Assembly: GCA_017640605.1 (NCBI GenBank)
Contig: JAEPQH010000021.1
Coordinates: 1-61,754, forward strand
Source of the DNA: Balneolaceae bacterium
GTDB lineage: Bacteria > Bacteroidota > Rhodothermia > Balneolales > Balneolaceae
DNA length: 61,754 nucleotides
Direction of reading: 5' to 3'
The translations under genes were made by a program, and so were the position numbers. A model generated the notes under the pieces. That model did no database searches, had not been told where the DNA came from, and saw nothing but the letters and a program-made list of their open reading frames with translations. This document shows, piece after piece, positions 14,948 to 34,300 of this stretch. The number at the start of each line of letters is the position of its first letter. The first letter of the stretch is position 1.

Positions 14948-15955
14948 CTAGCTGGATTTACGCTTCGAAAGTGTAACCGGAATAAGGCTTTGAACCCCGG
15001 CGTGTTGTTTCTCGCCAAATAATTTGGTGTTTAATACCTCCAATGCTTTTTTACCCAATGCACTATAATCGGTGCGCACTGAGGTTAGAGTAGGTTGTAC
15101 ATATTGGCAGATAGGAAGGTCGTCGAAGCCCACAACGGCAAGCTCATCAGGAACCGAAATACCGTGTTCAATTGCTTTTGATAGAAAACTAACGCACATT
15201 ACATCGTTAGCAAAAAATATGGCTCTTGGTTTGTGTTTACTATGAAGGTAATGGTCAAACGCTTTTGCTCCATCAATAAAATTGAAATGTCCATCAAACG
15301 ACCACTCTAGCTTCATTTCTTTATGTCTGGCCACATAGTCTTGGAACCCGTTTCTGCGTAATAACGATTCAGTTCGTTCGAAAGGCCCGTTCACAATGCC
15401 TACATCGTAATAACCCTTTTGATAAAAATGTTGAGCTACTAAATATCCACCGCCATAAGAATCGAAAGTGATGGTATCGACGGAAGGATTTTGAATGGGC
15501 AAAACTGAAATTAAAATGAAATCAGAGGGAAGATTTTCCAAAAGCCGCTCATATTCAGGTTCACTCATCATCGGCAAAAATAGAATCACCCCTTCAATCT
15601 CATTGGCCATTAAAACTTTAATGTATTCCAGCACATCGGTTTTATCCGGATTGATGTGATGAAAAGAAACGTCAAAATTTGTTGCCTCAGATGCATTCGA
15701 GATACCCGCAAATAACGAAGCGTAAAATTCGCTTGGAAACAGTGTGGTAATTAAGGCGATTCGAGTTTGAGAACTAAACTGATATTTATTTTTCAGGTAA
15801 GTGAAGTTAAACGGGTACTTAAGCTTGATCGCAGCATTGATTGTCTTTTCTACGTTTTCTGAATTCGATCCCGATTCACCCCGAAGAATTCTTGATACCG
15901 TCGATATCGACAAACCTGTATAGTCGGATATATCTTGAAGAGTGGCTTTGTTCAT
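14948..15955 (-). CDS. LacI family transcriptional regulator
   Basis: A 335-residue LacI/GalR-type repressor. The helix-turn-helix and hinge are textbook (ATLQDISDYTGLSISTVSRI, residues 4-23), followed by a periplasmic-binding-protein-like effector domain (FFANDVMCVSF and AVVGFDDLPICQYVQPTLTSV are canonical). The ATG at 15955 was chosen over an upstream in-frame start at 16069 because LacI proteins begin only a few residues before the HTH and because the extension runs through a candidate operator. It is divergent from the T9SS/TonB operon and convergent with GH30-SGNH, so it probably senses a sugar and controls this locus and itself. Confidence 0.92.
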   Translation of the reverse strand: MNKATLQDISDYTGLSISTVSRILRGESGSNSENVEKTINAAIKLKYPFNFTYLKNKYQFSSQTRIALITTLFPSEFYASLFAGISNASEATNFDVSFHHINPDKTDVLEYIKVLMANEIEGVILFLPMMSEPEYERLLENLPSDFILISVLPIQNPSVDTITFDSYGGGYLVAQHFYQKGYYDVGIVNGPFERTESLLRRNGFQDYVARHKEMKLEWSFDGHFNFIDGAKAFDHYLHSKHKPRAIFFANDVMCVSFLSKAIEHGISVPDELAVVGFDDLPICQYVQPTLTSVRTDYSALGKKALEVLNTKLFGEKQHAGVQSLIPVTLSKRKSS

Positions 15956-16001
15956 ATGCTTTTCTTTTTGCCCGTCAATAATATGAAAATGATTACACAA
16001 A

Positions 16002-16022
16002 ATGTGAGAAAAATTCCCACAT
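16002..16022. promoter_or_regulatory. Candidate LacI-type operator O1
   Basis: A 21-bp near-perfect palindrome whose arms are ATGTG and CACAT and whose core is TGAGAA-AAA-TTCCCA; only one symmetric position pair mismatches. It lies 47 bases upstream of the regulator's own start codon, a position suited to autorepression. Confidence 0.55.
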
Positions 16023-16082
16023 CTTGGATGTAAGTAACACTGTGTCGTTTTCAAGGTTGGAAACAACACGTAGATAGAAAAA

Positions 16083-16316: not shown

Positions 16317-18704
16317 ATGAAACATTTCTACAATCAATTAAGAGTGCTTTTCTTTGTTTTTGTTGGAGTATTTGCAATGGAGTCAGCCAATGCGCAGTAT
16401 GCGTTTTATGGCACAGATATTATCATTGACGGAGATTTCTCTGCGGATACACTTTCATCAGCATGGGCACCATTTTCAACTTCAATGGATGGTGGAGCAG
16501 CTACGGCAACATTTGGGGTCACAGATAGTGTTGCATCAATTACCGGCATCTCCGGTACCGATGGAACTTCTTGGCACGTTCAATTCAACCAAATCTTAAC
16601 TGCAGATCAAATTGCAGCTATTGAAGTGGGTAAAGAATACGAGCTAAGTTTCGATGCCCGCACAGATGCTGAATCAAAAGATATTGCCGTATTTTTTGGC
16701 CACAACGGTGGTGGATGGGAAAATTATGCAACCGGTGTTACCCTAACCAACACCATGCAAACATTTACCCAGAAAGTATTTGTTAATGCTACTTGGGGAG
16801 TAGACGATGCCGGAATGAAAGTTGGTTTCGAAGGTGGAACCGATAATGCTTCGTTTTTTATCGATAACGTAAAGCTTCGCACTGTTTCGGATAACATTGT
16901 ACGAAATGGTGATTTTTCTGCGGATTCTGCATGGTTTGAAGGTGGCGCAATCGTTGATGGCGAGCTACAGTTTATTGGATTAACCGGCGAAGGTAATTCG
17001 TACGACGTTCAGGCAAACCAACCATTTAACCAAGAGCAGTTAGACTCCATTTATGTGGGGCCTTACTCGATTTCATTCGATGCCAGAACTGACGAAGGTA
17101 CACACGACATTCACGTATTTATTGGTGAAGTTGGCGGTGGATGGGCAAGATACCTTGATCCCGCAAGCGATGGTTTATTTACTATTGACACTGAAATGAA
17201 AACGTATACCCGTGAGTTTGCTGTTAGTGAAACTTGGCCGAGTATGAGAATTGGTTTTGAGGTGAATTATGATGCTGGTGATGTTTTCATCGATAACGTA
17301 GTATTCACAAGAATTACTGATGTAGTACCCGATGCGCCTGTAGTAAACCTGTCTACCGCAAATGGTATCGTAACGGTTGCAGTTGAAGATAACGGTGCGG
17401 CTTCATATGATGTATTCTTTGCTGATAGTGCATTCACTGAAACTACTCAGGGAACTTATGTAGGCACCATTGATCCGGCAAATGGACTTTCATTAACTCA
17501 CACAACGCAAGCACCACACCCCGATTTGGTACTGAACTTTGATGCTCACTATGGAGTAGTAGCTAAGTCGGAAAAAGGTTCTGCTAGTGATATGACTGCT
17601 TCTATGATTAATACTGCAACCAGTGTTCGCGAAAATTACATTGTTGAATTAAGCGAAGAAGCGGTTGAAGCTGTTGCAGGAGCGTTAGAAACGGGGGTTG
17701 TACCGGAAGCGGCTACACTTGCCGGATTCTTCCCGGATGGTTACAAGCCATTTGAAATCACTACAAACAATATTCTTACAGAAGGTACCGGTGCCGACTC
17801 TGATACTGATATTTCTGCAAAATTCTGGGTTGGCTTCGAAAACATCTCAGGAAGTGATTTGTTTGTAATCTATGCTGAAATTATGGATGACGTAATTGTA
17901 CCTGCCGCAAACGCAGCTAACGGTGGTGGTGGTTGGAATTTTGACAGTTGGGAAGGTGGCTTCGGTTCTTATGCACCGGAATCATTCATAACCGGCTCTA
18001 CCCATGATGCCTTTGAATCTGGCGACGAACCTGATTATCAGTTACGTGCAGGTTTCATGGTTGGCGCTGATCCATACATTCATGGATGGGATGGCGATAC
18101 CGGTGACTTTAACCAGTTGATTCAAAACTCAGCCACAATCGGTGACAGTTCACAAACAGGTATGTATCGCTTATTAACTGCTATAAGTACTCTGGAATTT
18201 AGTGGGGTAAATACCGGTGCGAAAAACTTCGATTATCCTACCGGAACCGGCGTAACAACCATACCTTTCCAACTTGCTGTTAATGACAATGACGGAACAG
18301 CTCGTGATGCACAGTACGCGTGGTCAAGCAAAAGTACCAGTCAGTGGTGGAATACTCCATCCGAGTGGGAAGTAGTTGCTTTGGTTGGAGCCGATGCAGT
18401 ATTCACAGTAAACGATGAGTTGGAAGCTTCCACTCCAATGGTGTTTACACTAGAACAGAACTATCCAAATCCATTTAACCCAAGCACTAACATTCAGTTT
18501 AGCTTACCGGCTACTGCAGATGTTACTCTTGAGGTGTTTAATATGTTGGGCCAAAAAGTGGCAACGTTGATTGATGGACAAAAAATGACTGCTGGTAGTC
18601 ATATTCAAAAGTTCGATGCTTCTAGTCTTGCATCAGGTATGTATGTGTACAGAATTAGCGCTGCTAACTTTGTACAGTCTAGAAAAATGATGCTTATCAA
18701 ATAA
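16317..18704 (+). CDS. T9SS-exported multimodular carbohydrate-binding protein
   Basis: A 795-residue secreted protein: signal peptide (1 to about 27, ending ANAQ), two consecutive CBM4/9-like beta-sandwich modules (about 33-192 and 193-335, both with SFDART and FIDNV motifs), an FN3-like stretch (about 336-440), and a region (about 441-700) with NDNDGTARDAQYAWSS that resembles CBM9-type or related modules. It ends in a T9SS type A sorting domain (about 705-795: NYPNPFNPSTNI, GMYVYRIS, KMMLIK). No glycosidase active site is visible. It probably sits on the cell surface and captures a glycan for the TonB receptor encoded next, much as SusE/F proteins do. First gene of the LacI-controlled operon; no Shine-Dalgarno. 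Confidence 0.85.
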   Translation: MKHFYNQLRVLFFVFVGVFAMESANAQYAFYGTDIIIDGDFSADTLSSAWAPFSTSMDGGAATATFGVTDSVASITGISGTDGTSWHVQFNQILTADQIAAIEVGKEYELSFDARTDAESKDIAVFFGHNGGGWENYATGVTLTNTMQTFTQKVFVNATWGVDDAGMKVGFEGGTDNASFFIDNVKLRTVSDNIVRNGDFSADSAWFEGGAIVDGELQFIGLTGEGNSYDVQANQPFNQEQLDSIYVGPYSISFDARTDEGTHDIHVFIGEVGGGWARYLDPASDGLFTIDTEMKTYTREFAVSETWPSMRIGFEVNYDAGDVFIDNVVFTRITDVVPDAPVVNLSTANGIVTVAVEDNGAASYDVFFADSAFTETTQGTYVGTIDPANGLSLTHTTQAPHPDLVLNFDAHYGVVAKSEKGSASDMTASMINTATSVRENYIVELSEEAVEAVAGALETGVVPEAATLAGFFPDGYKPFEITTNNILTEGTGADSDTDISAKFWVGFENISGSDLFVIYAEIMDDVIVPAANAANGGGGWNFDSWEGGFGSYAPESFITGSTHDAFESGDEPDYQLRAGFMVGADPYIHGWDGDTGDFNQLIQNSATIGDSSQTGMYRLLTAISTLEFSGVNTGAKNFDYPTGTGVTTIPFQLAVNDNDGTARDAQYAWSSKSTSQWWNTPSEWEVVALVGADAVFTVNDELEASTPMVFTLEQNYPNPFNPSTNIQFSLPATADVTLEVFNMLGQKVATLIDGQKMTAGSHIQKFDASSLASGMYVYRISAANFVQSRKMMLIK

Positions 18705-18767: not shown

Positions 18768-21527
18768 ATGAAGAAAATTTTGTCTAATTCGTTTGGACTA
18801 GCTTTAGTCTTGTCTCTAATATTTCACTCAGCATCTTTGGCTGAATTCGGGACAAAGGGTAAAATTGCAGGTACGGTAATTGATGAATCTGGAGAAACCC
18901 TTATCGGTGTACAGGTTTATATCGACGGTACTACCAAGGGTACACTAACCGATGTGGATGGAAAGTATACCATCATAAATCTAGATCCGGGTACTTATAC
19001 AGTAGTATTTTCATACATAGGTTTTGCAACAACACGAGTTGAAAAAGTTCAAGTAATTGTAGATAAAACCACCGAAGTAAACGTAACGTTAAGAGAAGAA
19101 GTAATTGAAGGGCAGGAAATTGTAGTAACTGCTGAACGCCCAATTGTAGAAAAAGACAGAACCACAACCACATCGTACATAAGCTCAGAGCAATTAGAAG
19201 CTTTGCCTCTTGTAAGTATTAACGAGGCGATTAACCAAACTGCAGGAGTTGTGGATGGACATTTCAGAGGTGGAAGAACCGGTGAAGTTTCTTATTTGGT
19301 AAATGGTGTTCCAATTAATAACGCATTCAACAATGGTGCTTCTTTTGATGTGGAACAAAACATGGTTTCTAGCCTCGAGGTAATTAGTGGGGTGTTTAAC
19401 GCAGAATATGGACAGGCTTTATCAGGGGTAGTTAATATTGTTACCAAAGGCGTGAGCCCGGAATGGTCGGGCAATTTTCTTGGCTACGTTGGCAGAATTG
19501 TAAGTGGCAGAGAACTAGAATTCGTTACCAGAAATACAGATCAGAAACTATTCTTAAGCGCCGATGATTTCTCGAACGAAAAATTCACATATAGCGAAGT
19601 AGCGCCAACAATCGGCGATCAGGATTATCAAGTATCATTGGGCGGCCCCATTATTAAAGATAAATTGAGCATCCAAACTACGTTACGCTATGTAAAATTC
19701 GACGGACATTTGATTGGTCGTGACTTATTTCGCCCTAGTGATGTGCAAAGCGCGAATGTGCGAACGGGTGATAATCCAAGTAGCTGGTTAATTCAAGCTT
19801 CGGGAGATGGTGATTTTGAGTCGATTAATCGTCAGGAGCGTTTATCTTTAAACAGCTCATTTGTTTATGAAATTAATAGCCGTTTAAAATTCGATTACAA
19901 TCTATTCTATCAATTTGGCGATGGACGAAATTACGATCAGGCGTATAAATATAATCCAAGCGGTATAAACAATTATTACTTCTCTAATCAAACCCATATT
20001 GCCGGTTTACGCTTGTCGATGGGCGATAATGCCTTTGCTAATTTCTCATACAGCTTCTTGAACGATCAAGCTGAAAGTTACCTGTATGATGATGTTACCG
20101 CCACGGGCGACTTAGACGAGCGCTACGTACCGGCAGCGTTTAGTTCGCAGCAAGGAGCCGATGCATTTGTGATGGGTGGTAATTATTTAGGTTCCGGTCA
20201 GGAAATCACAAAAACCCATACAATTGTTGCAGATTATACCAATCAAATCAACAATGTTGTATTGTGGAAATCCGGAGTTTCAACTCGTTTTCACCGTTTA
20301 GATAACGAGAACTTTGGCATCAGTGTGAACCTGGCTACTGGGCGTGCTTTTCGCTCAACAAACGATGTTTTGAATAACAGTCTGGAAGTTAATCCTTGGG
20401 AAGCAGCCGCTTATTCTCAGGTTAAATTAGAATTCGACGAATTGATTGTTAACGCTGGTCTTCGTTTCGATTACTTTGAACCTGATTTCGTAGTTCCTCG
20501 TGATTATACCCAATTCCATTTGGAAACCATTCCTGATCCAAATAATCCCGGTCAAGAAATTTCAAACAGAATACAAGCTGATCCAACCTATCAATTGAGC
20601 CCACGTTTGGGAGTGGCTTTCCCCATTTCGCAAACCGGAGTGATGCGTTTTTCTGCAGGTTTGTTTTTCCAAACCCCTCAGCTGAATCTACTTTATGTAA
20701 ACAACGAGTTCGATCGTTCTCAAAGTGCTTCAGCATACACATTGGGTAATGCAAACTTAGAGCCCGAAAGAACACTTCAGTTCGAGATTGGTTTGCAACA
20801 AGGCCTAACCGAAACCATGGGACTTGATCTGACTGTATTCTCAAAAGATGTACGCGAACTCGCCGGGCAAACTGTAGTCCGTGGTAATACCGGGGTGCCT
20901 GTGGGTAGACTGGAAAACATCGATTACGGAACTGTGAAGGGAGTAACATTCTCGTTGTACGAGCGAGGAACCGGTCAGCTTTCGTGGACCTTAGATTATA
21001 CTCTGCAATTTGCCAGCGGATCAGCTTCGGATCCGGGCGAACGATTCAATCGATTTGTAAATAATGCAGAGGATATCATTTTTATAAACCGTTTGAACTG
21101 GGATCGCAGAAATGTGCTAAACAACTCGATTACCTGGGTAAGTAAATTCGGTTTAACTCTATCAGCAATTAATAGCTTGCAGTCAGGCAGTCCATACACG
21201 AGTGAAAGAGATGATATCACTTCTCTTATCCCAAATAACTTGGACACTCCAACCTGGTTTAATTCTGATGTGAGAGCATATTACAAGCCACCGGCTATAA
21301 GCCACAATGTAGAGTTCTTTGTACAGGTGGATAATCTGTTCGATTCTAATCCACACTTTGGAATCTACAACGACACCGGCCTAGCGAATGAATCAACCGA
21401 TTTATGGAGGCTTCAAAATTCAGTAGGTAGACCCGGAGGGTTAAATACTTACGAAGAGTTTTATTTAGATCCGTCAAGAAGAGGCGCTCCTCGTAGCGTT
21501 AAGATTGGCTTAAGTTATAATTTTTAA
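18768..21527 (+). CDS. TonB-dependent receptor with N-terminal carboxypeptidase-regulatory-like domain
   Basis: A 919-residue outer-membrane receptor. The signal peptide spans about 1-26. A carboxypeptidase-D regulatory-like (Ig-like) domain follows (about 30-112: GKIAGTVIDESGETLIGVQV, DGKYTIINLDPGTYTV). The plug lies at about 125-240 (EAINQTAGVVDG, SYLVNGVPINNAF, NAEYGQALSGVVNIVTKG), then a long barrel ending in the usual aromatic residue (GLSYNF). The domain order resembles SusC-like receptors, but no SusD gene follows. Import of an oligosaccharide is inferred from the neighbouring CBM protein, GH30 and LacI regulator. Energy would come from TonB/ExbBD; two TonB-family proteins are encoded at 49-50 kb. 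The next gene starts within 16 bases. Confidence 0.92.
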   Translation: MKKILSNSFGLALVLSLIFHSASLAEFGTKGKIAGTVIDESGETLIGVQVYIDGTTKGTLTDVDGKYTIINLDPGTYTVVFSYIGFATTRVEKVQVIVDKTTEVNVTLREEVIEGQEIVVTAERPIVEKDRTTTTSYISSEQLEALPLVSINEAINQTAGVVDGHFRGGRTGEVSYLVNGVPINNAFNNGASFDVEQNMVSSLEVISGVFNAEYGQALSGVVNIVTKGVSPEWSGNFLGYVGRIVSGRELEFVTRNTDQKLFLSADDFSNEKFTYSEVAPTIGDQDYQVSLGGPIIKDKLSIQTTLRYVKFDGHLIGRDLFRPSDVQSANVRTGDNPSSWLIQASGDGDFESINRQERLSLNSSFVYEINSRLKFDYNLFYQFGDGRNYDQAYKYNPSGINNYYFSNQTHIAGLRLSMGDNAFANFSYSFLNDQAESYLYDDVTATGDLDERYVPAAFSSQQGADAFVMGGNYLGSGQEITKTHTIVADYTNQINNVVLWKSGVSTRFHRLDNENFGISVNLATGRAFRSTNDVLNNSLEVNPWEAAAYSQVKLEFDELIVNAGLRFDYFEPDFVVPRDYTQFHLETIPDPNNPGQEISNRIQADPTYQLSPRLGVAFPISQTGVMRFSAGLFFQTPQLNLLYVNNEFDRSQSASAYTLGNANLEPERTLQFEIGLQQGLTETMGLDLTVFSKDVRELAGQTVVRGNTGVPVGRLENIDYGTVKGVTFSLYERGTGQLSWTLDYTLQFASGSASDPGERFNRFVNNAEDIIFINRLNWDRRNVLNNSITWVSKFGLTLSAINSLQSGSPYTSERDDITSLIPNNLDTPTWFNSDVRAYYKPPAISHNVEFFVQVDNLFDSNPHFGIYNDTGLANESTDLWRLQNSVGRPGGLNTYEEFYLDPSRRGAPRSVKIGLSYNF

Positions 21528-21542
21528 TCTTTGAACAATCAG

Positions 21543-24500
21543 ATGTATAAAAAGTCTTTTTCGTTCGCGGTACTCATAGCAGTGTGCCTGTTGGCAATAA
21601 GTCCTTTACAAGCACAACAAACCATTCCCGATTCACTAAACGGTGTTGTTTACCGTGGTGACTTCGATAACGTTGCCCGTGGGGTATTGGATGGAAACCT
21701 CATTGAAACGAATTTCAGAAACCATGGCGAACTTTCTCGCTGGAACGACCTTCCCTGGGGCGTTTGGCCTCGTGGAGTAGGTGGGCGACATATTGATGGC
21801 GTTGGCGTTGTAGTCTCTGCCTATGTAGAAGCTGTGGATGCAAGCCGTGTTGAAACTGTAGAAGATTATCGAACGATATTATCGAATAATTTTCGGCCGG
21901 ATACGCTTTTAAATCCGGTAAGTATCAACTATCGGGAAGCAGGCGCCAGAATAAGTCCATATTCACCAAATCTTTGGGGATGGTTGCCACTACCCGGCTT
22001 TAACAATGCAGAACGTGTAGATCCGGTAACACTAGGTGCGGCTCCGTTACCGGCATTATCTAACGATCCTACCACTTGGCCAACTTTCTGGCCTGATCGA
22101 CTAGAGGAAGATGATTCCGGATGGCCCGGCACATGGAACGGGCGCGATGGGCGTTTCCCAAGTTCAGATTTGGAGTCTTATTATGTGATGGATGATTTTT
22201 CGGATCACGAATACTCCGTTGGCTTAGAAACAGAGGGGCCACATAGCAATTTAGGTGTGTACATGCCAAGTCCTTTCGAAGATCCTACTATTGGCGGTTT
22301 AGGGCTTCAAACTCAGATACGTTTGTTCCAATGGGCAAATATATTGTCTGAGGATACAATGTTCATCATCTATAGAATCACAAATAAAGGAGAAGGTGAT
22401 CAAACCCGATTGTTCTTTTCTCAGATTGTGGATTACGGCCTCGGGCAAGACGAAGATGATGACAACGCTACTTATGATCCGTTTTTGGATTTAGTATATG
22501 GATGGGATTCAGATGGTGTAGGTGTGCCTACTCAAGCAGGTGCAACCGAATATGAACTTGGTTACACCGGTTTTGCATTCCTTGAATCACCAGCAAATGA
22601 TGTGAATGGCGAAGATGATGATTTAGATGGTATTACCGATGAATCTCGCTTTGACGAAAACTATCTGCTATTTACCACTTTTGCAGAAATTGATGCTTAT
22701 GTGGAGTCTCAATACGATGTAAATCAGTTTGCAGCCTTCTATGGTGAGCAATATTTCGAAAGACCTGCCTATACCTTCGAAAGATGGTTCACCACCGATG
22801 AAAACCTAGATTGGGTAGGTTTTGAAGATGCGAATGAAAATGGAATCTTCGATGAAGGCGAAACACTAAATAATGATGTTGGTCGTGACGGTTTAAGCCC
22901 TTTCGATATTCAATATCCCGGCCCGGATGAAGGCGAAGGCGATGGAATTCCAACCAATGGTGAGCCAAACTACAACGAACTCGACGTAGATGAATCTGAT
23001 CAGATTGGTTTACGTGGTTTCGATTTAAATACTCGTCCATTCTACGAAAGTGGTGATAATCTTCGCGATGATACCTGGTTATTTGAGCGAATTGCAGAAA
23101 CATTGTTCTCGAATCCAGATTATGAAGAGCCTTCTACCGTGGTAGCGGATGAGCCATTTATTCTGTTTACCTCAGGCGAAGTAGAACTATTCTCAGAGAA
23201 TGATCCTACCGCGAAGTCTACCGATTTCTTCTCAACCGCATGGATTTTTGGTGACGATAGAGACGACTTCTTCAAAAACCGACGCACGGTTCAGAATATT
23301 TATAACTCTGATTATAACTTCGCTCAGCCGCCAATTCCGCCCACGCTTACCGCAGTAGCCGGTAATGAGCAAGTAGTTTTATCTTGGGATACCCTTTCTG
23401 TAGCAAGTTTCGACAGATTCCTGCAAGAGCAAGATTTTGAGGGGTATAAACTCTACAAAGGTACAGATAACCTCTTATCAGATGCTCGCTCTATCACCGA
23501 TGTAAATGGTACACCAACGTTCTATGATCCGATTGCACAATGGGACTTGGATAATGACATCAGCGGTAATGTTCGAGTACTGGAAGGCGATGCGCTTTAC
23601 AATATGGGCGATAATTCCGGTTTACAATTTTACTATGTGGATAATGATGTGACAAACGGCAAGATTTACTATTACGCGATAGTAGCTTACGATCGCGGCG
23701 TTCCTTCAGCCGGTGGTGACGATCCAGGAATCGATCCGCAGGAGAACACATTCCGGGTTGCTGTAAATGGTGCCGGTCAAGTAGTGGGAACCTCCCAAAA
23801 TGCAGCCGCAGTAATGCCAAGCACATTAGCAGCTGGGTTTGTTGAAGGTGGGGCCACCACCGATTTATCTTCGGTTACTTCCGGTACCGGAACAGGCTAT
23901 GCGGAAGTAAATATTGTAGTAGATGCACTTATTGATGAGTCGAAACTCTATGAGGTAACTTTTACCGATTCAGCCGCGGATGTTGGTGTGATGCGAAAAA
24001 CGGTGAATTATCAGGTGCGCGAACTAACTCAGGATGAGGTTAAAGTTAAATCCACAACCTATGCATCCACATCAAGTATTGTGGATGGATTCACCATCAG
24101 TTTTACAAACGCAGAAGCCGGCTTTATCCTCCCCAATAAAACAGGATGGATCTCAAACGAAGGGCAAGAAAATGAACTGTATGGTTTAGATCCTACAGAA
24201 CTAGACGGATTGTCGACCAACTGGGAATTAGTAATCACACCGGATCGTGAAGGGGATTTAACCAATTTCATTCGTACCGACCATGATTATGAACTCTATT
24301 TTGTAGATCCGGCTGATAGCACCTATCGACCACCACTTCGTTTTGGTGGCGGTTTTAGCCGAATCAATATCCCGGTGTTTGTTCGTAATCTCATGACAGG
24401 TGAACTCGCTGATATGTTTGTTCTTGATAATGATGATAACGATGAATTAAGTCCGGGCGACGCGCTATTGATCGCAGAAAGAGACGATCGTGTATACAAT

Positions 24501-24971
24501 TACCGGTTTATGGTTAGCATTCTACCAACAGAAAGTAGCACAGCTCCATCTCCGGGTGATAAGATCAGAATTTCAACCTCCCGCGAGTTTGGTTCCGACG
24601 ATTCATTCCAGTTTGCTATGCGAGCAGGTTCTGTTGATAATGAACTTGCCAAAGATCAGCTCGAAAATATTTATGTGGTACCAAATCCATATATCGGGGC
24701 GGCATCTTGGGAACGGGCAAGTAGTTCAATTGGCCGAGGTGAGCGTAAGATCGAGTTCTTTAACCTGCCAAAAACCTGCACCATTCGAATTTTTAATGTT
24801 CGTGGTGAACTCATTCGCACCATCGAACATGACGGGGCAAATAATGATGGTTCTGCGCCGTGGGATCTCAAATCCAACGAAAATGAAGATGTAGCCTACG
24901 GTATTTACTTCTACCATGTAGAAGCCCCCGGCATAGGCGAATACACCGACAAATTTGCGATAATCAAATAA
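21543..24971 (+). CDS. Large T9SS-exported protein with Asp-rich calcium-binding-like loops
   Basis: A 1142-residue protein starting at ATG 21543 (MYKKSFSFAV, signal peptide ending PLQAQQ); a TTG four codons earlier is less likely. No enzyme family was recognised. Asp-rich loops D353-V-N-G-E-D-D-D-L-D and DANENGIFDEGE (429-440) resemble calcium-binding EF-hand/TSP3-like loops. An FN3-like domain lies at about 595-690 (LTAVAGNEQVVLSWD ... YAIVAYDRG). The end (about 1060-1142: YVVPNPYIG, FNVRGELIRTIEHDG, GIYFYHVEA, KFAIIK) is a T9SS type A sorting domain. It is sandwiched between a TonB receptor and a PorV/PorQ-like gene in one operon, a position where a SusD-like partner would be expected, so a surface lid or binding role is inferred. 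Confidence 0.75.
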   Translation: MYKKSFSFAVLIAVCLLAISPLQAQQTIPDSLNGVVYRGDFDNVARGVLDGNLIETNFRNHGELSRWNDLPWGVWPRGVGGRHIDGVGVVVSAYVEAVDASRVETVEDYRTILSNNFRPDTLLNPVSINYREAGARISPYSPNLWGWLPLPGFNNAERVDPVTLGAAPLPALSNDPTTWPTFWPDRLEEDDSGWPGTWNGRDGRFPSSDLESYYVMDDFSDHEYSVGLETEGPHSNLGVYMPSPFEDPTIGGLGLQTQIRLFQWANILSEDTMFIIYRITNKGEGDQTRLFFSQIVDYGLGQDEDDDNATYDPFLDLVYGWDSDGVGVPTQAGATEYELGYTGFAFLESPANDVNGEDDDLDGITDESRFDENYLLFTTFAEIDAYVESQYDVNQFAAFYGEQYFERPAYTFERWFTTDENLDWVGFEDANENGIFDEGETLNNDVGRDGLSPFDIQYPGPDEGEGDGIPTNGEPNYNELDVDESDQIGLRGFDLNTRPFYESGDNLRDDTWLFERIAETLFSNPDYEEPSTVVADEPFILFTSGEVELFSENDPTAKSTDFFSTAWIFGDDRDDFFKNRRTVQNIYNSDYNFAQPPIPPTLTAVAGNEQVVLSWDTLSVASFDRFLQEQDFEGYKLYKGTDNLLSDARSITDVNGTPTFYDPIAQWDLDNDISGNVRVLEGDALYNMGDNSGLQFYYVDNDVTNGKIYYYAIVAYDRGVPSAGGDDPGIDPQENTFRVAVNGAGQVVGTSQNAAAVMPSTLAAGFVEGGATTDLSSVTSGTGTGYAEVNIVVDALIDESKLYEVTFTDSAADVGVMRKTVNYQVRELTQDEVKVKSTTYASTSSIVDGFTISFTNAEAGFILPNKTGWISNEGQENELYGLDPTELDGLSTNWELVITPDREGDLTNFIRTDHDYELYFVDPADSTYRPPLRFGGGFSRINIPVFVRNLMTGELADMFVLDNDDNDELSPGDALLIAERDDRVYNYRFMVSILPTESSTAPSPGDKIRISTSREFGSDDSFQFAMRAGSVDNELAKDQLENIYVVPNPYIGAASWERASSSIGRGERKIEFFNLPKTCTIRIFNVRGELIRTIEHDGANNDGSAPWDLKSNENEDVAYGIYFYHVEAPGIGEYTDKFAIIK

Positions 24972-24982
24972 GGCAAGTAATC

Positions 24983-26050
24983 GTGAAAACAATGACAAAA
25001 AAACTCATTCTTACTCAATTAATTCTGGTACTTGCCTTTTCAATGGTTCACGGGCAAACCGGTAACGAAAGTCGTGCGGGTACAACAGCGGCTCAATTTT
25101 TAACAATGGGTGTTGGAGCGAAAGGCGCAGCACTTGGAAACGCCAACTCGGTGTATGTGAGCGGTGCAGAAGCATTGTTCTGGAACCCGGCGGGTATATC
25201 TGTTGAAAATGACGGCGGAACCTTCAGCTCGGGCTTTATCAGTGTAAACCAATATTTTGTGGATGTTGATATCTACGGAGCAGGGTTAGTTTTTCCAATC
25301 GGCAAAAAACCAGGACGTGTTCTTGGTCTCGGTCTTAATTTTGTTGATTACGGAAGAATGGATGTTCGAACCGTTGAAGATCCTGATGGAATAGGTGCAA
25401 CCTTTGGTGCACATGATTTAAGCATCGCTTTTACTTACGCCCAGAATTTAACCGAATCGTTTCACTTTGGTGGTAGTGTAAAGTTCATCCAACAAAAAAT
25501 TTATGATATGGTTGCCGAAGCCGTTGCCATCGATATGGGTTTTCTTTTGAAGACAGACTATATCAACGGGTTAACCATTGGTGCTTCTATCACTAATTTT
25601 GGAAATGAATTACAGATGTCGGGAATCAACTCGGAAACATTTGTGGATTTAGATCCGCAACACGAAGGTAACAACGAAGGGATTATCGGCAACGTAAAGC
25701 TGAATTCTTGGGAATTACCACTTTCATTTAAGTTTGGTGTTCAGGTGCCTGCAATTAAACAGGAAAATCTGGAGCTTTTACTGCTTAGCGAAGTACAGCA
25801 AACCAACGACAATAACATAAACCTCGATTCCGGTACTCAGCTGAGTTATTTATCCAACACGGTCAAATTCCACGTTCGAGGAGGATACCGAGATTTATTT
25901 TTAGGTGATAATGTGGATGCGCACATGACTTACGGTGCAGGTTTTACATTAAAAACACAAAATGGAATGGCAATCGGTGTTGATTTTGCACAAGTTCCTT
26001 TCGAATATTTAGGTCAAACTACCATCGTGGATGTAAAGCTTTACTTCTAA
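24983..26050 (+). CDS. PorV/PorQ family outer-membrane barrel protein
   Basis: A 355-residue protein of the PorV/PorQ (FadL-like, UPF0164) family. It has a signal peptide to about residue 24 (MVHGQ), then the family signature RAGTTAAQFLTMGVGAKGAALGNA-like block (about 29-52) and EALFWNPAGIS, followed by alternating beta strands and a C-terminal strand ending VKLYF. In T9SS bacteria PorV shuttles secreted cargo from the translocon to the attachment complex. This copy directly follows a T9SS cargo gene, which suggests a dedicated partner rather than the genome's main PorV. The start is GTG (AAGG 9 bases upstream); ATG at 24992 is the alternative. Confidence 0.85.
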   Translation: MKTMTKKLILTQLILVLAFSMVHGQTGNESRAGTTAAQFLTMGVGAKGAALGNANSVYVSGAEALFWNPAGISVENDGGTFSSGFISVNQYFVDVDIYGAGLVFPIGKKPGRVLGLGLNFVDYGRMDVRTVEDPDGIGATFGAHDLSIAFTYAQNLTESFHFGGSVKFIQQKIYDMVAEAVAIDMGFLLKTDYINGLTIGASITNFGNELQMSGINSETFVDLDPQHEGNNEGIIGNVKLNSWELPLSFKFGVQVPAIKQENLELLLLSEVQQTNDNNINLDSGTQLSYLSNTVKFHVRGGYRDLFLGDNVDAHMTYGAGFTLKTQNGMAIGVDFAQVPFEYLGQTTIVDVKLYF

Positions 26051-26051
26051 A

Positions 26052-27815
26052 ATGATTCAATCGCTTTTTTCAACTATTGGCTGCTTTGCTTCAAGGCAGC
26101 CTTTCTTTTTTATCCTAATTTTTATCGTATTCATTGGTTGCTCAAGCAATCAGAAAGAAGAAGAGCATATCGACTTTCAGGTGCTGTTCGAGGTAAATGA
26201 TGTTGAGAGAACAGTATTTGATTTCGAAACAGCCTATGTAGAATACCTAATAAAAACAGGTCGAAACGATACAAAAAATGAGCGATATGGTTTTTTGAAT
26301 GAACTGATCGATAAGCTGTTACTTGCTCAAGCTGGAGCAAATAAAGGATTGCTGGATCATCCGAAATATCAAGCAGCAACTGCCTATCAGCAACAAAAAT
26401 CTATGATTGATTTCTATTTTGTGGATGAAATGGAAGAAATTTTGGAGCCGCTCACCGATGAAGAAATACGTCTGGCGTATGCAAAAAAGCAACGTTCTGT
26501 GTATGTGAGGCAGTTGTTCAGTACCGATGTCTCCGATCTGGAAGAACCCTATGAAAGGCTGAAGGCCGGTGAAGATTTTGTAGACGTAGCGAACGACTTT
26601 TACAATACGTCGGAGTACGATTCACTAGCCGGCTATCTCGGACCGATCAGTTATTTCGGAGCAGATGATGCTTTTGCTGAAGCTGCCTATTCCACAAATC
26701 TAAACGAGTTTACAGAACCCATTCGAACACGATATGGCTATCACATCATTTATGTAGAGTATATCGAGTTCCCGGCGATTTTGGCAGAAGATGAGTATCA
26801 ATATCGGAAACAGGGTGTAAGTAGTCAGTTAAAGCTGCGCAAGCAACAACTTATTTCGGACGAGTACATCCGAACAAAAATGGAAGGATTGAATGTACAG
26901 CCCGATCGAGAAAACCTAAATGAGCTTCGGCAGACTATATTAAATCTGGATGGTGAAGGGATCATTAGTAATATGCCTCAACCCGAAAATAACGCCTACA
27001 ACTGGACTGATGAACGGCTTGAGCAACTAGAAGCTTCCTTAAATCCTGATTTAATGCTCGCAACTTATGATCTGGAAGGAAGCAGATTTGAATTTACCGC
27101 TGGTGATTATCTACGTTGGCTACCCTTTTTATCGTTTCAGGAATCGAAAACTAGAACAGGCGCTTCTGTGGGCCGAGCGATGAGAAACGAAGTGTTATTC
27201 AAACAGGCAGAAGAAGAAAATTACTCGGAAGATAATCGAGTGCAAAAAGAGGTGGAGAAGCGAGGATACGATATGCTTGCGGATCTTTATCAGTACCAAT
27301 TAACCAGAGAGGCATTGGCGGATACTTCCGGCATTAGAGTTCCCTCAAGCTACAGAGATCGACTCATCCGAAATAAATATGTATTGTTAAAAGCTAGTTA
27401 TTGGAAAATTACCGCTGATAATTTACAGGAAGCAGAGTTAATCAAAAGCGAAATAGTAGATGGAGATATCCCGGAAAGCTACGACACTTTCACAAAAGTA
27501 GAATATGCAGCAGTTGACCCATCGAGCAACGATTTTGATCTCATTCGAAAAGGGATCGAAAATATGCCGGTTCTGGCTTACTCGGAGTCGGAAGGGTGGA
27601 TGGTGCTTAATATCCTAAAAAAAGAAATTACGGAAGTGAAATCCTCTACCGACGAAGCCGATATTGAGTCGCGCTATAAAGTGTTTACTGCTATAAATTC
27701 AGAAATTGCCACGCTTCGTGAACAAGCAAGCATCAGCGTAGATACACTTTTATTCGATTCGATTTATGAAGTGTGGAAACAAAAGGAAGACAATCCCGAA
27801 ACCGACGAGAATTAA
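26052..27815 (+). CDS. Parvulin-type peptidyl-prolyl isomerase lipoprotein
   Basis: A 587-residue protein with a hydrophobic leader and lipobox FIGC (Cys about 33), so a lipoprotein. A parvulin (PpiC/SurA) domain sits at about 150-235 (RQLFSTDVSDLEEPYERLKAG, GYLGPISYFGADDAFAEAAY, IRTRYGYHIIYVEY), flanked by SurA/PrsA-like helical segments. These proteins help fold outer-membrane barrels or secreted proteins in the periplasm. The single base between it and the PorV/Q gene shows co-transcription; it may be the chaperone for the barrel or T9SS proteins encoded just upstream. Last gene of the operon. Confidence 0.87.
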   Translation: MIQSLFSTIGCFASRQPFFFILIFIVFIGCSSNQKEEEHIDFQVLFEVNDVERTVFDFETAYVEYLIKTGRNDTKNERYGFLNELIDKLLLAQAGANKGLLDHPKYQAATAYQQQKSMIDFYFVDEMEEILEPLTDEEIRLAYAKKQRSVYVRQLFSTDVSDLEEPYERLKAGEDFVDVANDFYNTSEYDSLAGYLGPISYFGADDAFAEAAYSTNLNEFTEPIRTRYGYHIIYVEYIEFPAILAEDEYQYRKQGVSSQLKLRKQQLISDEYIRTKMEGLNVQPDRENLNELRQTILNLDGEGIISNMPQPENNAYNWTDERLEQLEASLNPDLMLATYDLEGSRFEFTAGDYLRWLPFLSFQESKTRTGASVGRAMRNEVLFKQAEEENYSEDNRVQKEVEKRGYDMLADLYQYQLTREALADTSGIRVPSSYRDRLIRNKYVLLKASYWKITADNLQEAELIKSEIVDGDIPESYDTFTKVEYAAVDPSSNDFDLIRKGIENMPVLAYSESEGWMVLNILKKEITEVKSSTDEADIESRYKVFTAINSEIATLREQASISVDTLLFDSIYEVWKQKEDNPETDEN

Positions 27816-28241: not shown

Positions 28242-31200
28242 TCAAATATGTGCCTGCTGTTTTTTGTTGAATAAGGCATTTTTTATCGATCCGAATAGAT
28301 TGCCAATCCAATGTATTACCTGTTTCAAGCCTAACGAAATGGCCGGTGTAATAAACAGTGTAAAAATAACGCCAAAAAGCAGACCAAAAATCACTGTTTT
28401 TGCTAAGGGTGACCAAATTTCTGCACCCGCACCCAACTCTAACGAAAGTGGAATCATCGAACAGATTGTGGTGATTGCAGTAAGAAGAACGGGGCGCATT
28501 CTTCGCTTACAAGCTTCCAGAATATTCTGCATAAATACAGAATTCTTATCCAGATTGAATTCCATGTTTCGGGTTCGTAAGTGCATGTAATCCACCAAAA
28601 CAATTCCATTATTGAGGATGATTCCAACCAGCATAAATAGCCCGATATTTCCGGTTGTACTCAGTGGCGAACCGCTGAGCATCAATCCTGCAAGAGCGCC
28701 AAATAATGCCATTGGAATACAAAACCAGATTACAAATGGATCACGGAAATTTTCGAATAACGAAGCCATTATCATGAACATGAGTACAATGGCCGCAATA
28801 CCCGCCCACATGAATTGATTCATTGCTTGTTCGGTTTCGAAACTGGCTCCGGTAAATTCATATCGGTACCCTTCCGGCATCACGATTTCTTCGTCAATAA
28901 AATTGGTGATGAGAGCCTTGTACTCTTCAGATTCTCCATTAAACTGAATGTTAACATCCAGCAAAATTTCGCGATTTCGTTTCGAGTAAGAATCCACACC
29001 TTTAGTCTCTACAAACTCACCTACTGCAACTACTGGAATGCGCTGATCTTCGTATTGTAGAACCTCCAGATCAAATAAATCTTCGCGTGAAGTTAAAGCA
29101 TCTTTTGAAGTTCGTACTTCGATTGGAATTTCTCGTCCTTCTGTTCTGAAAAATCCTGCCTGATTTCCAAGTGTTTGTGTGCGCAAATTACTGGCAACAT
29201 TGGCAACACCTGCATTTAGTAATCCAACTCGGTTACGGTCTACCACAAATTGTAATTCAGGGGTAGGATCAGTGCGCCCGTTATCTACGGATGTAATATT
29301 TGGATCGTCGAGTAGGCGTTCTTCAATTTGATTGGAGATTTTCAAAAGTTGCTCCATTTCGGGACCCACAAACGTTAGCCTAAGAGAATTGCCACCAAAG
29401 CTAAATCCACGACCCCCAAAATTTAAACCACCACCCTCAACTGAAGCACGCACAGTTGCACCCGGATAGGTAAGTTCTTGCCGAAGAGCAGCCGCCATTT
29501 CGTTGCTGGTTATTTCCCTTTCCTCAAGCGGCACTAATTTGATGGTAAAGCTGCCTCGGTTACTTTGTTCGGTCCACCGACTGCGCCCAATGTTCGATAC
29601 CAATGTTTCGATCTCAGGTTTGGCGAGCAGGATTTCCTCAAACTGCTTCATCACTTCTACCGTTTTTACGAGTTTTGTGCCTTCCTGAAGAGAAATATTT
29701 ACATCAATCTCACCGGAATCAGTTTCGGGGAATCCTTCTTTGTTGATGTTCTGAAATAAATAAACGGTTCCTCCAAGGATCCCGATCAATAGCATGGTGG
29801 GTAGCCACTTGTGGTGCAAAATCCAGTTCAGAATTTTTCCATATCCACCTTCTAACTTGTGCATGGCTTTAAATACAAAACCGCCTTTATTGAATTGGTC
29901 TAGATCCAATACCAATAATGCTACAACCGGAACTAAAATTATCGATGAAAGAAAGGAAATACCAATCGCAAAACTGATGGTGAGGGCAAATTCTCGGAAT
30001 AAGGTTCCTTGAACACCGGTAATGAGTGTAATGGGGATAAAAACTCCCAGAGTGGTTAGTGTGGAGCCGAGTAGTGGTCCGATTACTTCATTGGTTCCGG
30101 AGAGAGCGGCTTCCATTTTTGCGATCCCATCTTCCATTTTTCGGGCAATACTTTCTGAAACAACAATGGCATTATCAACTAATAATCCGATTGCCAAAGC
30201 TAGAGCAGAGATCGTAAAAATATTAAGTGTCAAACCTGCCGCATACATTGCTGCAAAACAAGCTGCAATCGAAACAGGAATAGAGATAGCTACCACAAGA
30301 GAAATTCTCCATCCACCCATAAAAATCAGAATGATAAGCACCACAACCAACAGCGCAATTAACGAAGATTGAGCCAGGTTGTTAATGGAATCGTCGATGG
30401 TTTGCCCTTCGTCGCTTAGAATTCGTAATTCAACATCAGGAGGTAGTTTTTCATTGATTTCAGGAACCACTGCTTTTACGGCATTTACGACATCCAGCGT
30501 GTTTGCATCCGAATTTTTCTGTACTTCGATGGATACACTATTATTCCCATTCACATTCACCAAACTGGTTACTTCGGTAAATCCATCCGAAACTTCAGCA
30601 ACATCACCAATACGAATTGGAACTCCGTTCTCCGCAACTTTGATAATGGTCTGGCGAATTTCGTCTACGGTTTTGTACATCGATTCTGCCCGCACACTGT
30701 AACTGATATTCTGCGCGAGCACATTACCCATCGGTAATTGTGTATTATTAGTAGAAATGGCGTTTTCAATTTCCTGTGGAACCAGGCTGTATTGGGCTAA
30801 ACGCATTGGTGAAACATCTACATAAATTCGTCGCTCCAGGCCTCCACGAGTATCCGCCGAGGCTAAACCAACTAGGCGTTCTAAACTTGGCTCAACCACT
30901 TCAATAGCGAGATTGCGGAGTTCATCCAATCCCTTTTGCGCAGAATTAATACTCAATTGCATGATGGGGCGGTTTTCCGGGTCGAACTGGAAAATTACCG
31001 GTTCGCGAGCCTGTTGGGGTAAATCGGCCCGGATTTGATCAATCGCTTTTTGAACTTTTAATTCCGTTTTTCTGATATCTGTGCCTTCATACAGGCGCAT
31101 GATAATGAATGCATTACCACGACTTACTCGTGCCTCCAGACTTTCAATACCTTCGATGGCAGAAACCGCACCTTCAATAGGTGTAACAATTATCCTGTCA

Positions 31201-31385
31201 ATATCCTCGGGTGCCACATTTTGGTAACCGGTTGAAATTGCCAAAACCGGGATATTCAACTTAGGAAAGAGCGTAACTCTCAGATTGGTGAGCGAGAATA
31301 TGCCGAATCCGACAATAATCAAAGTACACATGATTACAGTAATCGGGCGATTCAGAATTCCTCCGGTCAGGGTAAATTTCTTCAT
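28242..31385 (-). CDS. RND efflux transporter permease (second of pair)
   Basis: A 1047-residue inner-membrane RND pump of the AcrB/HAE1-like superfamily. It has a membrane helix at the N terminus (about 12-32), a porter domain, then TM2-6 near 340-500, a second periplasmic loop and the second helix bundle (about 860-1030). In TM4, where AcrB has an Asp-Asp proton relay, this protein has D404-N405 (GLLVDNAIVV). Its start overlaps the stop of the preceding permease gene by four bases (ATGA). Two different permeases with one adaptor suggest a heteromeric pump like MdtBC. Substrate unknown. Confidence 0.93.
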   Translation of the reverse strand: MKKFTLTGGILNRPITVIMCTLIIVGFGIFSLTNLRVTLFPKLNIPVLAISTGYQNVAPEDIDRIIVTPIEGAVSAIEGIESLEARVSRGNAFIIMRLYEGTDIRKTELKVQKAIDQIRADLPQQAREPVIFQFDPENRPIMQLSINSAQKGLDELRNLAIEVVEPSLERLVGLASADTRGGLERRIYVDVSPMRLAQYSLVPQEIENAISTNNTQLPMGNVLAQNISYSVRAESMYKTVDEIRQTIIKVAENGVPIRIGDVAEVSDGFTEVTSLVNVNGNNSVSIEVQKNSDANTLDVVNAVKAVVPEINEKLPPDVELRILSDEGQTIDDSINNLAQSSLIALLVVVLIILIFMGGWRISLVVAISIPVSIAACFAAMYAAGLTLNIFTISALALAIGLLVDNAIVVSESIARKMEDGIAKMEAALSGTNEVIGPLLGSTLTTLGVFIPITLITGVQGTLFREFALTISFAIGISFLSSIILVPVVALLVLDLDQFNKGGFVFKAMHKLEGGYGKILNWILHHKWLPTMLLIGILGGTVYLFQNINKEGFPETDSGEIDVNISLQEGTKLVKTVEVMKQFEEILLAKPEIETLVSNIGRSRWTEQSNRGSFTIKLVPLEEREITSNEMAAALRQELTYPGATVRASVEGGGLNFGGRGFSFGGNSLRLTFVGPEMEQLLKISNQIEERLLDDPNITSVDNGRTDPTPELQFVVDRNRVGLLNAGVANVASNLRTQTLGNQAGFFRTEGREIPIEVRTSKDALTSREDLFDLEVLQYEDQRIPVVAVGEFVETKGVDSYSKRNREILLDVNIQFNGESEEYKALITNFIDEEIVMPEGYRYEFTGASFETEQAMNQFMWAGIAAIVLMFMIMASLFENFRDPFVIWFCIPMALFGALAGLMLSGSPLSTTGNIGLFMLVGIILNNGIVLVDYMHLRTRNMEFNLDKNSVFMQNILEACKRRMRPVLLTAITTICSMIPLSLELGAGAEIWSPLAKTVIFGLLFGVIFTLFITPAISLGLKQVIHWIGNLFGSIKNALFNKKQQAHI

Positions 31386-34300
31386 ACAGTAACCTCTTCT
31401 TTAGCAAGTGGATCTTCTTTGTGAATAGCATCAAAACCAAGTTTACTCACACCTTTATTGATTAGGTTGTAAATGCTGGGTACTACAAATAGCATCAAAA
31501 ATGTTGACATTGTGAGTCCTCCGATAACCGTGCGTGCCATGGGGCTCCATGTTTCTGAACCTGAGCCAATCTCTAGTGCTAGCGGAACCATTGATAAAAT
31601 AGTAGTGAGTGCAGTCATCAAAATAGGACGCAGACGACGAGTAGCGCCTTGCACAATGGCTTCATGTCGGCTCATTCCTCTGGCTTGCAGAATTTTTATG
31701 TAATCGATCATCACAATTCCATTATTAACCACAATTCCGGATAACAGAATTAAGCCAACCATGGAGGTAACACTGATGGGTGTGCTGGTTAATCCAAGTA
31801 TGATTAATACCCCGGACAGAGCCAGTGGTATAGTGAAAATGATGATGAATGGCTCAATCAAACTCTCAAATTGCGAAGCCATTACCATGTAGGTTAATAT
31901 CCCGGCGATGGCAAAAGCAATGAGTAAGAAATTAAACGATTCAGCTTGTTCTTCTGCTGAGCCTGCGAGTGCGTAACGATAACCCTCCGGCCATTGAATT
32001 TCATCTAGTAAAACTCGCGCTTCGGCGGAAGCATTTTTTAAATCGATGTCATCAAGTTCAGTAAAAATTTCAACAACGCGCTCTTGGTCGATTCGGGTAA
32101 CGTTAGTGGGACCTGTGAAACGTTCTACACGTGCTAAATTACTAAGCGGCATCCATTCGCCGGTTGGTGTCTGAATCTGAATGTCTTCCAAATCAGAAGA
32201 GGCTGATTTTTGAAGAGGGTCGAGTTCAACCAAAACTTCAAACTCCACGCCCTGATCCACAAAACTCGTGGCAATGGAGCCCTGAACGGCATTACTTACC
32301 GCGCTGGCAACTTGATTAGTGTTCATACCTACTAACGAAATCCGCTCGCGATCCATTACCAATCGAAGCTCCGGGCGTCCTTGATCTGAAGTAGAATAAG
32401 CACTTACAACGCCATCAATTTGTAGTAAACGCTCTTTTACGCCTTCGGTTAAATCTTTCTTCACAGCCGGGTCAAAACCGAAGATTTGGACGATCAATCC
32501 GTTTTCACCATCCGGCGAGAGAGGATCAATCACAATTTCCTGAACATCCACACCGGGAACAATTTGTAAATCGGTTAATGCTTGGTTTACAATCTCAAAT
32601 TGCGTTCGATCCCGTTGATCTTGAGAAACCAGTTCTACCCGAATGGTACCGGTAAAACCACCTGGATTATCCGCGCCTTCAATTCCTTCTTTATCTCCGT
32701 AATCCGAAACAATAATCCGGGCTTCAGGAATGGTTCGGGTTAGTACGCTTTCCACTTGTTTAACCGAGCGCTCTAGTTCCAATAAACTTACTCCGGGTTC
32801 GCGGCTAACTTCTAATGTGAATGCATTTTCATCCACACGAGGAAAGAATTCACCACCTAAGGAATTAAAAATAGGCAGGGTTATCACAAAGAATAAAACT
32901 GCTGAGAAAATGATTAATCCACTGCGATGTAGACTTGAATCAAGCTGTCGTGAATAGATTTCTTCCAATTTTGCCAGCAGATTGCTAAAGAATAGCGCCA
33001 GTTTATTATCTGACTGAAATTTCGATTCTCCATCTCTGAAAAACTGTGACGTCATCATTGGGATCAATGTTAACGCAACGAGCGACGACACTGAGAGCGA
33101 GAAAGAAATGGTGAGGGCTAAGTCGCGAAATAGAAACCCTGCAATACCGGGCACAAATAAAATTGGGAGGAATACCACCAAGGTGGTTAGTGTTGAAATA
33201 ACTACCGGAACGGCCACTTCTTTCGCCCCCATCACAGCAGCATCTTTTCGGTTATGACCTTCTTCTCGGAAACGGAAAATGTTTTCCAGAACCACAACAG
33301 CGTCATCAACCACCAATCCAACAGCAAGTGTTAGGCCGGAAAGTGAAATGATATTGAGGCTTAAATTTGCGAAATCCATCACTGCAAAAGTGGTAATGAT
33401 AGAAACCGGGATTGAAATAGCGATTATCAGTGCAGAACGCCCACTACGCAAAAAGGCTAGCAGAATAAGTACAACTAAAATAATGGCCTGTAAGCCGGTA
33501 AGCAGCAAGTTCTCGATCGACATTTTAATGAACTCGGCTTTATTTGTAAGCACTTCTACTTGAATATCTTCAGGCAAACTCTGTTTGATGACGTCTAAAC
33601 TTGCAATAACTTCATCAGCAGCAACCACCACATTTGCATCACTTTGGCGATAAATGTTGATGATGATTCCGTCTTCACCATTTACCTGTACGTTGCCAAT
33701 TGGCTGGGCTATCCCATCTTCAACCTTAGCTACATCCTTTAGGAAAAGTGTTTGTCCATCACGAACTTCGATAACTGTATTTCGGATTTGCTCAACCGTT
33801 TTTAGTTCGCCCATGGTTCTGAGTGAATACACGGTGTTACCCTCGATAAGTTGGCCGGCAGGAACCTGAATATTTTCAGCAGATAGGCGTGAAGAAATAT
33901 CTGAAATGGTAACATCGTACAAGCGCATTTTCTCGCTATCGATGGTTACATTGATCTGGCGCTCCAATCCACCGGAAGTTTCAGCTGATGCGATCCCATT
34001 AATACGCTCAACCCGTTGTTCAAGAATTTGGGTAGCATAGGTGCGTAAATCACGCGAAGATCGGACATCAGAGGTAACAGCAAGAACCACTATAGGTTCC
34101 TGATTGGGATCGTAACTAAATACAAGTGGGGTTTCTGCATCTCTCGGAATTGATCTGGATACGAACCCTAACTGTTTACGAACGTCGTTTTCTGCTTCAT
34201 AGAGATCCGTTCCCCAATTGAAATTTAGCTTTACAACCGATGCACCTTGGCTCGAAAGTGAACGAACCCGGCGAATTCCACTAATACTTCCAACCTGCTC

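Follow-up and report, generated by a model that had tools for sequence, protein, structure and literature searches.

A gene triplet for a TonB-dependent receptor, a large T9SS-exported protein, and a PorV/PorQ-family barrel that looks like a counterpart of the SusC/SusD system

The window analyzed here is a stretch of 61,754 nucleotides from a Balneolaceae genome. On its plus strand, at positions 18768–27815, four genes follow one another with gaps of 15, 11, and 1 bp, just as an earlier note on this DNA had claimed. The first gene encodes a TonB-dependent receptor (TBDR) of 919 aa (18768–21527; CarboxypepD_reg, Plug, and barrel by Pfam/NCBIfam). The second encodes a large T9SS-exported surface protein of 1142 aa (21543–24971), labelled BIG below, with a type I signal peptide and without a convincing lipobox; its length is counted from the ATG, and a start at the TTG further upstream (21531) would extend it to 1146 aa. 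The third and fourth genes encode a PorV/PorQ-family outer-membrane barrel of 355 aa (24983–26050; NF033709, 135.5 bits, cut-off 90) and a parvulin-type PPIase lipoprotein of 587 aa (26052–27815; Rotamase, 35 bits, cut-off 21.7), both in agreement with the earlier assignments.

The CBM-bearing T9SS protein reported ahead of the operon was also found: the gene at 16317–18704 (plus strand) encodes a CBM4_9/CBM9-like T9SS-exported surface protein with a CBM4_9 match, a CBM9 score only just under the cut-off, and a type A tail (TIGR04183), and this CBM4_9 protein is kept upstream of orthologous triplets of TBDR, BIG, and barrel. A divergent LacI-family regulator (14948–16069, minus strand; Pfam/NCBIfam) and a GH30 glycoside hydrolase (11691–13151, plus strand) precede it; the best NCBIfam model for the latter was endo-1,6-beta-glucanase (393 bits, cut-off 700). 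GH30 was rejected as a conserved clue to the substrate, as no GH30 turned up in the orthologous loci that were fetched. The gene of a GDSL protein also lies upstream of the triplet, with ribosomal and RNA polymerase genes further upstream. Just downstream of the module, on the minus strand (28242–34507), there are two adjacent genes of RND-type efflux pumps (1047 and 1041 aa), named from sequence.

A profile scan based on a four-sequence alignment of BIG, with one genome per species, retrieved at least 80 loci; because BIG alone was used for the search, the neighbors of these loci were unselected. All three genes of the triplet were present in 48 of the 49 loci with room on either side of BIG, and the strict same-strand order TBDR–BIG–barrel was kept in 45 of the 49. 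The four exceptions to this order were a broken BIG frame, a reordered locus, a tandem arrangement, and a missing barrel (one each). In the reciprocal test, covering 38 related genomes, 41 of the 43 receptors of the clade were located within 700 bp of BIG; one of the other two was at a contig end, and one had a partial BIG match 1.5 kb off. Together, these counts set aside a chance origin of the gene order. The retrieved loci came from Ignavibacteriota, Neomarinimicrobiota, Calditrichota, KSB1, WOR-3/Stahlbacteria, Rhodothermota, Eisenbacteria, Kryptonia, and others; the recurrence outside the Balneolaceae genome, which the earlier note had proposed to check, is thus widespread. Binning errors may account for a few short contigs that carry the label Verrucomicrobia or Spirochaetes.

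The Balneolaceae genome itself contains two further full triplets (L009 and L010) and two short-form loci. Plasmid pRMAR01 of R. marinus carries, in triplet order, a TBDR, a “hypothetical protein”, and a “PorV/PorQ family protein”. This triplet (L013) was the only plasmid triplet found in PLSDB; it has type I-U CRISPR genes a few genes away and an FG-GAP protein upstream. The parvulin PPIase adjoins 15 of the 44 triplets with 2-kb flanks, i.e., about a third, and is probably an optional component of the module, a periplasmic chaperone; most simply, it would assist the folding of BIG or the receptor in the periplasm.

One short-form locus, G000:C1:4936-15881 (L098, L012), encodes a 735-aa protein with FnIII and a C-terminal domain (CTD), a 1071-aa lamin-tail T9SS protein, and a 499-aa protein, along with a TBDR and a PorV-family barrel. 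Throughout the order, each genome has about one such receptor with a short protein of this kind, which suggests a conserved paralogous system without glycan genes. No evident glycan genes were found among the proteins scanned at the short-form loci.

The designation “SusC-like receptor” had to be given up. The window receptor scored 83 bits with the SusC/RagA model TIGR04056 (NCBIfam), below its cut-off of 368, and its clade differs from that of the SusC proteins of the same genome; judged by sequence, it is properly worded as a member of a TBDR clade separate from SusC. In a tree obtained by a quick search, some branches of which are long, the triplet receptors formed one group (SH-aLRT 96; 100 when short-form receptors were included), to which neither the receptors paired with SusD nor fifteen further receptors of the Balneolaceae genome belonged. 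The earlier statement that no SusD homologue occurs is correct for the window locus, where SusD had no match, and incorrect for the genome, in which three true SusD genes are encoded elsewhere, each adjoining a SusC-like receptor. SusD was also absent from all of the at least 80 related loci, as searched with a model built from these three SusDs; since no others entered the model, very divergent SusDs could be missed.

Receptor, BIG, and barrel are inherited together. Across 57 complete triplets, the distance correlations were r = 0.84 for receptor–BIG, 0.81 for receptor–barrel, and 0.70 for BIG–barrel, with permutation maxima below 0.17 (0.16 for receptor–BIG); 29 of the 34 well-supported receptor splits recurred in the BIG tree and 25 of the 34 in the barrel tree. 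Species history contributes to this agreement of the trees. Paralogous triplets of one genome occupy different places in the trees and keep their partners; for example, L010 groups with L113 from another genus, and L009 with L110/L111.

BIG is a T9SS cargo, as indicated by its Ig-like C-terminal sorting domain and by the presence of the T9SS in the genome, where all the parts sought were found: SprA (1459 bits), PorU (1113 bits), PorZ (440 bits), PorV, and PorQ. The CTD of BIG (residues 1040–1142; 24660–24968, plus strand) is a T9SS signal of the PorZ type (NF052228, 26.6 bits); compared by VIA with PorZ 5m11, it gave Z 11.8, rmsd 2.2, and 24% identity over 89 residues. The ordinary type A tail, TIGR04183, had no match in the window BIG. 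Among the CTDs of 64 BIG relatives, the PorZ model was matched by 42, PorU by 21, and ordinary type A by 6; the PorZ-type matches are weak and single (about 25 bits each), yet consistent across the relatives. The T9SS proteins beside the triplets showed the reverse balance: type A 33 and PorU 10, with PorZ not among the 25 families listed. In the Balneolaceae genome, PorZ itself left out, four of the six PorZ-type CTDs and one of the 44 other CTDs were encoded within 500 bp of a PorV-family gene (Fisher p = 3e-4), the numbers being small and three of the four being BIG paralogs.

Regarding the barrel, all 67 relatives (67/67) match the PorV/PorQ family model NF033709 with E <= 0.001, and the window barrel remains under the equivalog cut-offs of NF033710 or NF033711 (50 of 250 and 85 of 220 bits). 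The true PorV and PorQ of the genome are encoded elsewhere. The earlier note was justified in calling the barrel dedicated, since it differs from the PorV, PorQ, and PorV2 that the genome also encodes. Neither PorP/SprF (TIGR03519) nor a type B CTD was found in the window proteins or in the family counts of 64 CTDs and 67 barrels. At another locus (G000:C26:201418-203683, L101), a protein of 536 aa whose CTD is of the PorZ type is encoded directly before two tandem PorV-family barrels, and this cargo–barrel pair had no TonB receptor match within the fetched stretch. A 2406-aa T9SS protein encoded directly before a PorV-like barrel (G000:C14:31406-32751, L102) is a possible dedicated cargo–barrel pair.

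In P. gingivalis, PorZ is anchored by PorQ and PorU by PorV (PMC5562754), and the CTDs of PorZ and PorU stay uncleaved (PMC5121618); in the case of type B cargoes, the cognate PorP/SprF barrel is encoded directly downstream (PMC12618676, PMC9143113). The most economical reading would be that each module barrel captures and anchors its own BIG. The earlier note had assigned delivery to the barrel; because the CTD of BIG is of the PorZ type, this role is probably better put as “delivers and then holds”. An unlikely alternative is that the barrel acts only as a shuttle and is recycled once BIG has passed to the PorU sortase; this enzyme would remove the CTD and attach BIG to LPS, so that BIG would be an ordinary surface protein, and the receptor would work alone. 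Such a sortase pathway exists, as the genome has PorU and PorZ, with the scores given above, as well as PorV and PorQ; however, with a general PorV already in the genome, an additional barrel for each cargo would be superfluous, the CTDs of BIG are PorZ-like and not ordinary type A, and the three genes are inherited together.

The AlphaFold model of BIG (67 relatives in the alignment; one row, from a plasmid record, was left out) had a mean pLDDT of 83.7 and was almost all beta, with only scattered short helices. A SusD-like fold had been named in the earlier note as telling against BIG in the role of SusD; the modeled protein has no SusD-like helical fold. Its N-terminal super-beta-sandwich domain (approximately residues 34–600; 21642–23342, plus strand) was delimited from VIA matches to the accessory domain of GH15/GH94/GH116. 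Residues about 37–590 gave Z 14.6–19.7 and rmsd 3.1–4.4, with about 240–275 residues aligned, in the top 23 matches, nearly all of which were carbohydrate-active proteins of the GH15/GH94/GH116 kind; galactose mutarotase-type structures matched at Z 10.8–12.8 (VIA). This domain is followed by a fibronectin-III-like domain (approximately residues 601–740; 23343–23762, plus strand; Foldseek FnIII-array matches and strand pattern), a poorly conserved beta region, and the CTD. With the whole model, Foldseek found FnIII-array matches with low TM-scores, while a search of PDB sequences gave no match with phmmer and weak partial matches only with a profile. Fusions between the module families were not detected in the fetched loci by a two-family match test.

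Six tryptophans are among the near-invariant residues of the N-terminal domain, together with an Asp-rich calcium-type loop (residues 356–367; 22608–22643, plus strand), previously noticed in this protein, in which D358, D360, D362, and E367 are invariant in an alignment of 67 sequences. Many Asp/Glu residues are conserved in the relatives, and the nearest solved folds are domains of carbohydrate-active enzymes, mutarotase-type ones included; both would fit BIG being a surface enzyme (mutarotase-like, a lyase, or otherwise glycan-processing) displayed next to the receptor and not a subunit that serves in binding or as a lid. We consider this quite unlikely. The catalytic residues of GH15/GH94/GH116-type enzymes sit in an (alpha/alpha)6 barrel, and none is present in the AlphaFold secondary structure of BIG; a Pfam scan of BIG gave no glycosidase or other enzyme match, an invariant His as in mutarotases was absent among the 67 relatives, and separate hydrolases are encoded nearby. 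An enzymatic fold had also been named as telling against BIG in the role of SusD. What the model contains of it is the super-beta-sandwich, known as a non-catalytic domain of enzymes; the (alpha/alpha)6 catalytic barrel is absent. According to the model, the N-terminal domain is an accessory fold of carbohydrate enzymes, probably non-catalytic, and not a SusD fold.

Pfam families of the 88 proteins downstream of triplets included Por_Secre_tail (33), CBM20 (12), GH16 (6), and CBM48 (6), and, more rarely, X25 (5), glucoamylase (3), GH66 (2), and GH94 (2); those of the 70 proteins upstream included PPIase (6), LacI (5), alpha-amylase (4), and CBM9 (4). The control set consisted of 88 genes of these loci at a distance of 4.5 kb or more; here, Por_Secre_tail was found three times, and CBM20, GH16, and amylase were not among the 25 commonest families. 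Among the neighbors of the triplets, T9SS proteins, CBM20, GH16, amylases, and LacI regulators are strongly over-represented. LacI homologues were located beside all three full triplets of the Balneolaceae genome and beside many others. In the xylan locus of R. marinus, a TonB receptor and hypothetical T9SS proteins lie beside xylanase 10A, an arrangement left uncommented (PMC6987092). That the module imports non-glycans (peptides, metal chelates, or cofactors), or that the receptor serves secretion or surface assembly, with glycan genes nearby merely since these organisms are rich in them, would agree with the many ligands imported by TBDRs, the short-form loci without evident glycan genes among the proteins scanned, and the many triplet neighbors without a Pfam glycan family, but is very unlikely, given that glycan genes are concentrated beside the triplet and not at least 4.5 kb away, that LacI-type sugar regulators occur at all three full triplets of the genome and many others, and that the R. 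marinus xylan locus has such a TBDR with hypothetical T9SS proteins (PMC6987092).

From gene organization, recurrence, receptor clade, co-inheritance, folds, CTD type, and neighborhood, we give a little better than an even chance to the triplet being an outer-membrane glycan-uptake module, in which BIG is delivered by the T9SS, held by the barrel, and fills the place of SusD at the receptor. BIG would cross the inner membrane by Sec, with help in some loci from the co-encoded parvulin lipoprotein, and the outer membrane via the T9SS translocon. The neighboring PorV/Q-family barrel would capture the PorZ-type CTD and keep it uncleaved, so that BIG would need no lipid for its attachment to the surface, in the way that PorZ is held by PorQ. 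In the physical complex that we infer, the super-beta-sandwich of BIG would bind oligosaccharides freed by the nearby T9SS-secreted hydrolases and CBM proteins and, acting as a lid or binding subunit, would hand them to the cognate TBDR, thus taking the place that SusD has in SusCD. The super-beta-sandwich of GH15/GH94 enzymes is not their main sugar-binding site, which counts against this explanation, and genes of one operon may share their regulation while their products form no joint complex. Further points against it are the weakness of the PorZ-type CTD matches, the parvulin being limited to about a third of the loci, and the absence of GH30 from the orthologous loci fetched.

Each part of the module is a known kind of protein, and the whole is a TonB receptor plus a surface partner. 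In many little-studied bacteria, the triplet looks like an undescribed counterpart of the SusC/SusD sugar-uptake system. No description of the triplet was found in the open-access full-text literature, a scope outside which subscription journals and preprints fall; the combination, the one-barrel-per-cargo logic for PorZ-type CTDs, and the breadth appear to be undescribed. If the triplet is indeed a glycan-uptake module, it would explain the uptake of polysaccharide fragments at SusD-free loci in Ignavibacteriota, Neomarinimicrobiota, Calditrichota, and relatives, give a role to families that now carry the labels “hypothetical”, “PorV/PorQ family”, and “TonB-dependent receptor”, and broaden the role of PorV-family barrels, which would serve not only as a shared shuttle but also as anchors of individual cargoes within a transporter. 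The conserved triplet would be a simple marker of glycan-uptake loci in uncultured phyla, where searches for SusC/SusD pairs would miss them. More tentatively, at somewhat less than an even chance, the triplet may represent a further general class of importers in many phyla of the FCB group and their neighbors, with a T9SS-supplied lid, a PorV/Q anchor, and a receptor in one assembly; secretion and import would then be built into a single receptor–lid–anchor assembly.

Like SusC/SusD (RagA/RagB), the module co-encodes a TonB-dependent barrel with one large surface partner, and is adjoined by glycosidases, surface glycan-binding proteins, and regulators. It differs in its receptor, which forms a separate clade below the SusC cut-off, in its partner, BIG being all-beta and T9SS-exported with a type I signal peptide whereas SusD is an alpha-helical lipoprotein, and in having a third gene, that of the PorV/Q barrel. 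With PorZ–PorQ and PorU–PorV (PMC5562754, PMC5121618), it shares the pairing of a protein with a PorZ/PorU-type CTD and a PorV/PorQ-family barrel as its putative holder; however, the module has one such pair per receptor locus and several per genome, beside a TBDR, and BIG has neither the PorZ body nor the PorU sortase domain. In the type B cargo system SprB–SprF (PMC12618676, PMC9143113), the cargo gene is likewise followed by that of its own outer-membrane barrel, and the cognate PorP/SprF barrel collects and anchors the cargo, a role presumed to be the same for the module barrel; in contrast, the CTD of the module is PorZ/type A-like, its barrel is of the PorV/Q family, and the unit includes a TonB receptor. 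Finally, BtuB–BtuG and other TBDT/surface-lipoprotein complexes (cited in PMC12578637) resemble the module in combining a TonB-dependent transporter with a surface-exposed partner, whereas BIG would come to the surface through the T9SS and be held by a barrel anchor rather than a lipid anchor.
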